A stretch of 64,000 bases of DNA from positions 67,553-131,552 of the forward strand of contig JAGVTU010000024.1 of the NCBI GenBank assembly GCA_019136655.1. The letters are read 5' to 3'. The position numbers and the translations under genes are program-made. Every line of letters begins with the position of its first letter. The first letter of the stretch is position 1. Source of the stretch: Bacteroidota bacterium (GTDB lineage: Bacteria; Bacteroidota; Bacteroidia; AKYH767-A; OLB10). Shown here piece by piece: positions 52,159 through 55,601 of this stretch. The notes under the pieces were generated by a model. That model ran no database searches, was not told the origin of the DNA, and saw only the letters and a program-made list of their open reading frames with translations.

Positions 52159-52743
52159 TTATAAATTTTTTAAAGCTGCTTTTATCAGTTCTTCCACGGT
52201 GAAAGTGTGACTGCTTTGATGAATTATTTTATGAAGTTCCTTCTCGGCAGCGTTGCGGTTGAAGCCCAATGCAAGCAATGCACTTAACGCCTCATCTTTG
52301 GCTGTATTGTATGATGAAGGAATTATTGCAGATGAAATTTCTGACTTTCCGAGTTTGTCTTTCAGGTCAATCACAATGCGCTGGGCTGTTTTGTCGCCAA
52401 TACCTTTAATGCGTTTGATGGCCGCCACCTGTCCTGTTGTTATTGACTGATGTAACTCCACAGCGGTCATAGACGACAGCATCATGCGTGCCGTACCCGG
52501 CCCCACACCCGATACAGAAATAAGATGCCTGAAGAGGGTACGCTCTTCTTCATCAGCAAACCCATAGAGCACGTGTGCATCTTCTTTAATGGCTAAGTGC
52601 GTAAACACTTTGGCGCGGGTTTCGTCCTTGAGGCGCGTGTAGGTTTGCAACGAAATGTTGAGCTGATAACCCACTCCACCAGCCTCCACCACAATGTAGG
52701 TTGCCGATTTAAAAGTTATGTTTCCTGAAATGTAATCGTACAT
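52159..52743 (-). CDS. ruvA: Holliday junction branch-migration protein RuvA
   Basis: A 194-residue protein that grips four-way DNA junctions and loads RuvB helicase. The N-terminal OB fold (YISGNITFKSATYIVVEAGG, VGYQLNIS), paired helix-hairpin-helix units (LISVSGVGPGTARMMLS and AIKRIKGIGDKTAQRIVIDL) and a C-terminal RuvB-binding domain (DEALSALLALGFNRNAAEKE) are all present. It lies 147 bp upstream of sprA on the same strand, with a perfect -7 element before it. Confidence 0.97.
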   Translation of the reverse strand: MYDYISGNITFKSATYIVVEAGGVGYQLNISLQTYTRLKDETRAKVFTHLAIKEDAHVLYGFADEEERTLFRHLISVSGVGPGTARMMLSSMTAVELHQSITTGQVAAIKRIKGIGDKTAQRIVIDLKDKLGKSEISSAIIPSSYNTAKDEALSALLALGFNRNAAEKELHKIIHQSSHTFTVEELIKAALKNL

Positions 52744-52771: not shown

Positions 52772-53037
52772 GTGAATGAAAGCAGAGGAAAATATTATAC
52801 TGATTTAATCACGAAAGCCCTGCTGAGCTATTGCACATAACTCTCTGCCATAAATGGTGGAGTTATTCTTTTGGGGAGATGTTGCATTTCCTCCGCGCAC
52901 CCGTAGCCCTAAAGGGTGCAGACGCACATCAAATACGTTGTGTGTAGTCATCACTTCAAGGGTAGGGGGTGAGTATAGCAGTGTGTCTGTAACATATAAG
53001 TTAGGCTTTAAACTTTTGAATACGAAAATCAATCACC

Positions 53038-53193
53038 GGCCTTATAAAAACATCCGCCCGGAAAATACAAAGCGATTCGTAGCGGAAGCATGTGTAAGCA
53101 ATCCCGAGCAACGTTTCGTAGCATTACGAAACGTTGCGACATTCGATTGCGCAGAAGAATCGGTTTGAATTTTTAGGATGTTTTTATACAGCC
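53038..53193. repeat. Nested imperfect palindrome of about 156 bp
   Basis: Three nested inverted repeats share one centre. Outer arms: 53038-53055 and 53176-53193, 16 of 18 positions matching, including a perfect TATAAAAACATCC block. Middle arms: AAAATACAAAGCGATTC on the left (starting about 53062) and its near-complement at about 53156-53172 match at about 15 of 17. Inner arms: GCAACGTTTCGTA (53108-53120) and TACGAAACGTTGC (53125-53137), perfect over 13 bp around a GCAT loop. It could fold into one long hairpin. It resembles a miniature inverted-repeat or REP-type element; copy number cannot be judged here. Confidence 0.75.
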
Positions 53194-53230
53194 TTGAACT
53201 TTTGGTTCTTTTGGTTCAAGCCAAAAGAAC
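53193..53230. repeat. Two overlapping, mutually exclusive hairpins
   Basis: CTTGAAC (53193-53199) pairs with GTTCAAG (53214-53220). Alternatively GTTCTTTTGG (53205-53214) pairs perfectly with CCAAAAGAAC (53221-53230) around TTCAAG. The two share bases and cannot form together. They abut the outer arm of the large palindrome. Confidence 0.65.
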
Positions 53231-53342
53231 ATATAATTATATCGCCACCAAAAAGTCCTTCTGAATTGTGGGATTGTGTCAATACAATATACAACTCTGC
53301 AAAACGCAATCTCTTCTTGAGTCGCAACTATAAATTCAACAA

Positions 53343-55601
53343 TTATTGTTTGCGGCTTTGCGCATCAATAACTGCAATAGTCACCATGTTCACAATATCG
53401 CGCACGCTGCTGCCAAGCTGCAACACATGCACCGGTTTTTTCATACCAAGCAACACAGGCCCTATAGCCTCAGCAGCCTCCATTGACTGCATCAGCTTAT
53501 AAGCAATGTTTCCTGCATCAAGGTTAGGAAATATAAGTGTGTTCACACCACCGTCAATCAACTCGCAAAACGGATAATTGTCGTGCAGCAGTTGCATGTT
53601 CAGAGCAAAATTTGCCTGCATCTCGCCATCCACCACCATTCCGGGAAATTTCTCGTGAAGTATTTCCACTGCCTTGCGCACCTTTATTGCCGATGGATCG
53701 TTTGACGTTCCGAAATTAGAAAACGAAAGCAGCGATATACGTGGTTTAATGTTGAACTGCTGAACTGCTTTGGCAGTAAGCAAAGTTATCTCCACCAAAT
53801 CTTCGGCAGTAGGATTTACGTTGATGGTAGTATCTGCAAAAAACAACGGGCCTTTTTTGGTAATCATAATATACATACCTGCCACACGTGTACCATGCTC
53901 CTGCACACCAATAATGCGCAGCGCAGGCCTTATGGTGTCGGCATAGTTGCGCGTAAGTCCTGAGATGAGTGCATCGGCCTGTCCTGTTTCAATCATCATA
54001 GCACCATAGTAGTTGCGCTCACGCATCACCTTCTTCGACTCGTAAACAGAAAAACCTCTGCGTTTGGCTTTTTCAAAAAACAACTGACTGAAAGTATTCA
54101 GATGATCATGATCAACACGCGGATCAATAATTGGTATTCCATCAATATTGAGATGGCTCTCCTCTACTATCTGTGCAATGCGCTCTTTGTTGCCAAGCAA
54201 AATAGGTTTGGCAATACCTTCTTCTTTTACCTGTTGTGCAGCTTTCAGAATTTTATAATTATCAGCTTCGGCAAACACCACACGTTGCGGATTTTGCTTT
54301 GCACGCGTCACAATAGCGCGAATAAGTTTATTGTCGAGGTTAAGACGTTTTTTCAAATCCTCAACATATCGCTCCCAGTTGGTAATTTTTACCTGCGCCA
54401 CTCCCGACTCCATGGCTGCACGTGCCACAGCAGGAGCTACGGTATATATCAGTCTTGGGTCAAGTGGTTTAGGAATAATATACTCCGGACCAAACTGAAG
54501 GTTCTTGGTATTGTAAGCAAGGTTCACCATTTCGGGAACAGGCTGCCGTGCCAACTGCGCAATGGCGTGCACCGCTGCCAGTTTCATCTCCTCATTAATT
54601 TGTGTAGCTCTTACATCCAGCGCTCCTCTGAAAATAAAAGGAAAGCCAATGACGTTGTTCACCTGATTCGGAAAATCACTTCTTCCTGTAGCCATTATCA
54701 CATCTTCTCTTGCATTTTTGGCATCGGTATAAGTTATTTCAGGATCGGGGTTGGCCATAGCAAACACCACAGGGTTGGCCGCCATAGACTTGAGCATAGC
54801 ACCACTCAGTATATTGCCCTTGCTCAATCCAATAAACACATCTGCATCTTTAATCGCTTCTTCAAGCGTACTTATCTTTCGTGTGGTCGCAAATATTTTT
54901 TTATTGGTGTCGAGATTTTCGCGATCGGCAGTTATCACTCCTGAACTGTCTAACATCACAATATTTTTTTTGTCAGCTCCCAGCGAAACAAACAATTTGG
55001 TACACGATATAGCCGAAGCTCCCGCACCGTTGACAACAATTTTTACCTTATCAATTTTTTTGCCCACCAGTTCAAGTGCATTTATCAGTGCTGCACCGCT
55101 GATGATGGCAGTGCCATGCTGGTCGTCATGCATCACAGGAATTTTAAGTTCTTCCTTGAGGCGCTTTTCAATTTCAAAACATTCAGGAGCTTTAATGTCT
55201 TCGAGGTTGATGCCACCGAATGTTGGCGAAATCGCTTTAACCGTTTTTACAAAATCATCTACATTGGTCTGATTTATTTCAATGTCGAATACATCAATGT
55301 CTGCAAAAATTTTAAACAACAATCCTTTTCCTTCCATCACAGGTTTGGAAGCTTCGGGGCCAATGTTGCCTAATCCGAGCACAGCAGTTCCGTTAGAAAT
55401 TACGGCAACCAGATTTCCTTTGGTGGTATATTTATAAACATTGTCAATATCCTTCTCTATCTCGAGGCAAGGTTCAGCCACACCGGGCGAGTATGCCAAT
55501 GACAAATCGCGTTGCGAGCTGTAGGGCTTGCAGGGTATAACTTCAATTTTGCCGGGTCTGCCTGATGAATGGTAATCGAGCGCTTCTTGTTTAACTCCCA
55601 T
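53343..55601 (-). CDS. maeB: NADP-dependent malic enzyme with C-terminal phosphotransacetylase-like domain
   Basis: A 752-residue MaeB-type enzyme that oxidatively decarboxylates malate to pyruvate. The malic-enzyme half (1 to about 425) has [11 protein letters not shown] (35-45), [20 protein letters not shown] (157-176) and the NAD(P) loop [10 protein letters not shown] (191-200). The C-terminal half (about 430-752) is a phosphotransacetylase-like domain with [16 protein letters not shown] and later TIRPALRI; in this fusion it is usually regulatory, responding to acetyl-CoA, rather than catalytic. It is complete and stands alone, downstream of the palindromic gap's far side. Confidence 0.95.

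Follow-up and report, generated by a model that had tools for sequence, protein, structure and literature searches.

The described systems closest to the element analysed here are REP/REPIN repeats, which are 20-65 nt hairpins with a GTAG-type foot, miniature inverted-repeat elements (MITEs) such as those of Porphyromonas, integron attC sites, and pseudoknots of the SAM-II or telomerase type. A T/U-tract running parallel to the A-tract of a stem is the geometry of U.A-U triple pseudoknots, and GNA triloops are unusually stable in DNA. For the Bacteroidetes, PMC6006769 reports uncharacterised 'atypical secondary structures' on the flanks of TnpA_Y1 genes of subclass 2.6, with further copies elsewhere in the genome.

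The palindrome studied here lies between ruvA and the malic enzyme gene in the window, a stretch of 64,000 nucleotides of Bacteroidota DNA, and is one copy of a Bacteroidota-wide, gene-less, dispersed hairpin-pseudoknot family. The original prediction described it as three nested inverted repeats forming a hairpin of about 156 bp that was implausible by chance and carried no gene of its own. All three repeats were located where predicted, with outer arms of 18 nt (53038-53055 and 53176-53193) forming 16 pairs, middle arms forming 15 of 17 pairs, and inner arms pairing perfectly around a GCAT loop. The outer arms consist of a 3-bp helix (P0, GGC/GCC) and the 13-bp helix P1, separated by a 2x2 internal loop (CT/CA), while an extra 6-bp helix (P3) is situated between the middle and inner arms. 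The RNA fold of the region reached -77.6 kcal/mol, whereas shuffled sequences averaged -44.3 (z -8.1; 0 of 200 shuffles), with z-scores of -9.6 for the DNA fold and -6.1 for the opposite strand. A chance palindrome was ruled out by this fold z-score together with the closure of the hairpin at the pseudoknot boundary, and no gene was seen inside the unit. The hairpin itself is present as predicted, but the feature continues past 53193 into a pseudoknot (to 53230) and an A-rich tail, the palindrome forming just the 5' portion of a longer unit that runs from 53038 to about 53240 on the + strand (Table 1). The long hairpin stops exactly where the H-type pseudoknot (53193-53230) begins, the sequence directly 3' of P0' being TTGAACTTTTGGTTCTTTTGGTTCAAGCCAAAAGAAC (53194-53230). 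Within this pseudoknot, the T-tract of loop L1 and the A-tract of stem S2 may possibly form a U.A-U triple helix.

Table 1. Coordinates of the element and its surroundings in the window.
Feature	Position	Strand	Basis or remark
ruvA	52159-52743	-	left neighbour of the element
Left flank AACTTTTRRATACGAAAATCAA	53008-53037	+	common to the C24 and G001 copies; G003 has a remnant at its orthologous ruvA locus
Whole element (hairpin, pseudoknot, A-rich tail)	53038-53240	+	copy comparison; boundaries of dispersed G047 copies; base composition of 140 copies
P0, 5' strand GGC	53038-53040	+	pairs with 53191-53193; covariation among copies
Internal loop CT, 2 nt, recurrent	53041-53042	+	opposite CA at 53189-53190
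P1, 5' strand	53043-53055	+	pairs with 53176-53188
P2 (middle arm), 5' strand	53062-53078	+	pairs with 53157-53173, 15/17
P3, 5' strand GCAATC	53098-53103	+	pairs with 53145-53150; fold
Apical perfect palindrome, 13 bp	53108-53137	+	arms 53108-53120 and 53125-53137; loop GCAT at 53121-53124, ATGA in the C24 copy
P3, 3' strand	53145-53150	+	fold
P2, 3' strand	53157-53173	+	sequence, fold
P1, 3' strand	53176-53188	+	sequence, fold
P0, 3' strand GCC	53191-53193	+	hairpin closure across copies
Pseudoknot S1, 5' strand CTTGAA	53193-53198	+	pairs with 53215-53220; covariation, 23 sequences
Pseudoknot loop L1 CTTTTG	53199-53204	+	conserved T-tract, parallel to the S2 A-tract
Pseudoknot S2, 5' strand GTTCTTTTGG	53205-53214	+	pairs with 53221-53230; covariation
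S1, 3' strand TTCAAG	53215-53220	+	covariation
S2, 3' strand CCAAAAGAAC	53221-53230	+	covariation
A-rich tail, 3' boundary	53231-53240	+	base composition; boundaries of G047 copies
Malic enzyme gene	53343-55601	-	right neighbour of the element

The same gap holds further short palindromes, CTCTGCCATAAATGGTGGAG, CACCCGTAGCCCTAAAGGGTG, and TCCTTCTGAATTGTGGGA (window 52841-52921 and 53231-53300), which have relatives elsewhere in the genome, so that several repeat families crowd this intergenic space.

When the genome of origin was searched, a second copy was found on another contig (C24:99563-99781) with 95% identity over 219 nt. Inside the unit, the two copies differ only at the apical loop and by two double changes in the pseudoknot; the apical tetraloop reads ATGA in C24 and GCAT in the window, a change that comes near to inverting the palindromic tip. 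Six divergent relatives ('type B') in the same genome retain this layout, but in them P0 is the other way round (GCC/GGC). A pseudoknot model (R1) matched 55 of 120 related genomes, at 0-50 copies each, and under strict filters 100 of 395 Bacteroidota genomes had matches; the share of searched genomes with matches was a quarter under strict and almost half under looser criteria. A pattern scan of GTDB genomes returned at least 80 named loci among the matches listed, and all 80 belonged to Bacteroidota or sister lineages, being assigned to Bacteroidota, Balneolaceae, or Neomarinimicrobiota. The window element had no match in annotated phage records, and the few Parabacteroides records labelled as plasmids that carry matches appear to be chromosomal. 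A single copy lacking conserved pairing in relatives, named in the original prediction as evidence against both a mobile repeat and a functional RNA, is not what was found, because genome copies exist and strong compensatory change occurs among relatives; the broader expectation of a dispersed repeat and/or a structured RNA is borne out. Matches were also observed next to genes for an HU-like DNA-binding protein, smalltalk, and an amidase in capsule loci of Parabacteroides distasonis TSDC17.2-1.1 (pseudoknot-like matches, L356-L358), and two other arrays (L341, L342) likewise lie within polysaccharide loci.

The fold is maintained across families. The 16 base pairs of the pseudoknot were 98.9% paired in 23 sequences drawn from several families, and both stems showed double changes. 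The covariation score of 0.242 compares with 0.063 in shuffled alignments (none of 500 reached it) and with a maximum of 0.062 in slid controls. The hairpin closes within three bases of the pseudoknot in 99 of 140 distinct copies, compared with 41 of 140 after shuffling and 28 of 135 on the downstream side. Across these 140 copies, P0 occurs as GGC/GCC (30), GAC/GTC (26), GCC/GGC (11), GAA/TTC (7), and GTC/GAC (4). A subset of 30 copies, picked for P0 formation and a 5' loop reading CT, was aligned at the hairpin base, where 90% of the cells pair compared with 58.6% in shuffles, none of 500 shuffles reaches the score, and double changes number 105 against 31.6 expected. In these values the P0 covariation is biased, since the rows were picked for P0 forming, while P1 was not itself a criterion for picking them, yet a fold that closes P0 favours P1. 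Unpaired positions are conserved as well: the motif GTTAAnAAA opposite TTTWAG was present in 57 of 140 copies and the apical motif TGTYYGA..CRAGTTT in 53 of 140, each against 0.4 expected. Many short apices carry GC-GNA-GC triloops, and G-U pairs make up 8.3% of long-range pairs compared with 14.7% in shuffles; together, these two features lean weakly towards maintenance as DNA or on both strands. Covariation in a palindrome can also stem from templated quasi-palindrome mutation, a caution that applies to the few differences between the window and C24 copies, but such mutation does not account for the conservation of the unpaired motifs and the pseudoknot geometry throughout the phylum.

The ends of the unit were delimited in 12 dispersed copies of one genome (G047), in which identity was 0.73-0.77 inside the unit but 0.38 to the left of it. 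The copies become similar from the first base of the hairpin, in P0, and cease to be so in the A-rich tail, about 10 nt beyond the pseudoknot. Among the 140 copies across families, 93% had C or T immediately left of P0, and over the 9 nt that follow the unit's pseudoknot on the right A made up 39-61%, mostly about half, giving a 5' boundary of Y|GNC-CT and a unit of about 130-200 nt. No terminal inverted repeats were seen in the 12 G047 copies, the ends coinciding with P0 and the pseudoknot, and no clear target-site duplication or repeated flank was found by eye. The element is consequently not a classical MITE, one of the identities originally proposed, since both the inverted repeats and the clear duplications are missing in these copies. 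A connection with MITEs exists in another form: one genome (G115, L254-L281) carries about 50 copies of a MITE of about 520 bp, each with two outward-facing hairpin-pseudoknot modules, which account for most of its roughly 100 covariance-model matches. This MITE, which is unrelated to the element, has terminal inverted repeats (ends AACTGA[GC]TATCCGC) and target-site duplications of about 6 bp, and the spread in this genome is credited to the carrier because the module rides inside it as cargo.

Three unlinked, non-orthologous sites in the host genus harbour the type A element, namely the ruvA gap and C24 in the genome of origin (G000) and C40 in a relative (G001). The region of G001 syntenic with C24 is an empty site, and the ruvA locus lacks the element in both G001 and a further relative (G003). 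In G003, a 22-nt remnant persists at this locus, which makes it likely that the element was lost there and not gained elsewhere in the comparison, and among the loci compared no integration event with both flanks clean was caught. The flanking sequence AACTTTTRRATACGAAAATCAA was considered as an independent repeat and rejected, as its only occurrences were next to the element and, in G003, at the ruvA locus. Some Chryseobacterium copies sit at shared loci and were inherited vertically, and many multicopy cases are tandem duplications of the element plus spacer (L142, L345, L347). These three arrays (L142:2684-3653 for the first) have units of about 300-470 bp in a single orientation.

We regard a non-autonomous mobile element, spread in trans via its folded single strand, as the best explanation, with a probability of about 0.58. 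The unit, ordered as Y|G-N-C, a 2-nt loop, P1, helices with recurrent loop motifs, P0', the pseudoknot, and an A-rich tail of about 9 nt, would be recognised by a putative enzyme as a folded single strand, either transient ssDNA or a transcript, and would be inserted into intergenic gaps without terminal inverted repeats or a clear target-site duplication. We infer recognition of the fold and copying in trans because the ends are coextensive with the fold and the unit has no gene; the intermediate could be DNA or RNA. A mobilising enzyme was not found in the search, and neither was a gene-bearing version between the same ends in the fetched loci, where a distant 5' partner was sought up to 4.5 kb away; two long-partner candidates (1.5 and 1.7 kb) proved to be adjacent pairs of copies. 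GC skew revealed no replication-strand bias (62 of 109, p 0.18).

A close and serious rival, though an unlikely one in our assessment, is a structured RNA (a small RNA or an untranslated-region element) whose 3' triple-helix pseudoknot protects an end or binds a protein, and whose copies multiply passively by duplication and hitchhiking. Such an RNA would fit the covarying pseudoknot with its parallel L1 and S2 tracts, the conserved loop motifs, and the situation in IMG/VR, where 14 stretches with the element pattern were found and the element was co-directional with the genes in four of five phage-like contigs of clear gene direction. However, the copies on chromosomes are chiefly intergenic and have no fixed orientation to their neighbours, both strands being equally represented ((-,-) 25 and (+,+) 23 of 80 copies). 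No recurrent neighbour family emerged when 823 ORFs from loci around copies were clustered, which gave housekeeping families only, and no conserved upstream promoter region appeared in the base composition of 140 copies. Moreover, the GNA triloops at many short apices are a signature of DNA hairpins. In four IMG/VR contigs (L328, L330, L335, L338), pseudoknot-pattern copies occupy gaps of phage-like structural gene clusters, parallel to the genes. Orientation also bears on a family of transcription terminators, in which a GC-containing hairpin is followed by TTGATTTTTTGG. A T-rich tract does follow the hairpin, each copy in the L125 array follows a stop codon, and convergent gaps are favoured over divergent ones (24 against 8 of 80 copies), but a gene lies upstream on the same strand in just 47 of the 80, a count that speaks against membership among intrinsic terminators. 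In the window, the element runs antisense to both flanking genes, the conserved loops and the pseudoknot would be superfluous for termination, and a consensus scan gave no terminator call for the element, which makes this reading very improbable.

Equally improbable is a REP/REPIN-type repeat moved by a Y1 transposase (RAYT), which the original prediction had put forward and which might correspond to the subclass 2.6 structures of PMC6006769. Both are dispersed palindromes, the published structures are also reported to have copies elsewhere in the genome, and Y1 genes are present in 94 of the 120 relatives. Nevertheless, membership fails because there is no GT[AG]G-type foot, no Y1 linkage, and no correlation of counts (Spearman rho 0.13, p 0.16). 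In genomes that carry the element, no copy lies within about 1.5 kb of 19 out of 20 Y1 genes, and the remaining gene has elements at a distance of about 2.5-3 kb. Nine genomes have the element but no Y1 gene, and the element is absent from eight of ten genomes with at least seven Y1 genes. The linkage test thus speaks against identity with the structures of PMC6006769, which were compared by their description. The original prediction had also suggested looking for a transposase gene with matching ends; the host's one Y1 gene (L068, G000:C9:141890-142234) sits inside a type I restriction-modification operon with other repeats. This gene adjoins a different palindromic repeat, GGACTCCAGAGGAGTCC. 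We give the least credence of all to an attC-like site, in which the folded single strand would serve a gene-cassette system for recombination. Same-orientation arrays do occur in many genomes, and in Parabacteroides sp. (L125:1039-7369, CALUZR010000002.1) six near-identical copies of a minimal 78-nt form, all in one orientation, separate three blocks of toxin-antitoxin type, each led by a nucleotidyltransferase gene, as well as an AAA/PD-(D/E)XK gene and an unassigned gene that by eye looks SIR2-like. Most of these copies lie shortly after the stop codon of a block, a TAnnTTTG promoter-like motif follows several of them, and the array is suggestive of cassettes. As a general rule, though, the cassette array was rejected, given that other arrays are tandem duplications of element and spacer and most have genes in mixed orientation, and no integrase was found among the ORFs of the 8-20 kb stretches read.

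Returning to the mobile-element reading, we tentatively propose, at a strength well below that of the reading itself, that the family may represent an undescribed class of selfish nucleic acid of about 200 nt, gene-less, with a fold (hairpin plus triple-helix pseudoknot) as its only heritable feature, which a putative enzyme would copy in trans by structure rather than by sequence, and which in Parabacteroides might also delimit exchangeable toxin-antitoxin or defence blocks. The family was found neither in Rfam nor in the literature searched, and it is matched in a quarter to almost half of the Bacteroidota genomes searched. No Rfam family reached the gathering threshold for the window region, five loci of the same genome, or 13 loci from relatives, and literature searches by sequence strings and keywords, whose coverage excluded most subscription journals, returned nothing on the element. 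The unit is a defined target of 200 nt whose ends are exact and for which a covariance model and naturally occurring compensatory variants are at hand, so that the questions of RNA or ssDNA and of the enzyme that moves it are directly testable in cultivable Chryseobacterium, Flavobacterium, or Parabacteroides.

Compared with described systems, the element resembles SAM-II and telomerase-type pseudoknots in a U-rich loop that would cross the groove of an A-U rich stem, but it has a different overall fold, no Rfam match, and no position upstream of a fixed gene. Like integron attC sites, it is folded, its paired sequence varies freely, and it occasionally forms cassette-like arrays; it nonetheless differs in that most copies lie outside cassettes and no integrase was found in the stretches read. 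With MITEs it shares a non-autonomous, dispersed, and intergenic character, whereas its ends are the ends of the fold and no terminal inverted repeats are used as such. In contrast to REP/REPIN repeats, it has neither the short hairpin nor the foot, but a unit of about 200 nt in which a 3-bp closing helix and a 2x2 loop are followed by a number of helices and, at the 3' side, by a pseudoknot; like them, it is dispersed, gene-less, palindromic, extragenic, and multicopy, shows no clear target-site duplication, and is proposed to be recognised as folded ssDNA.
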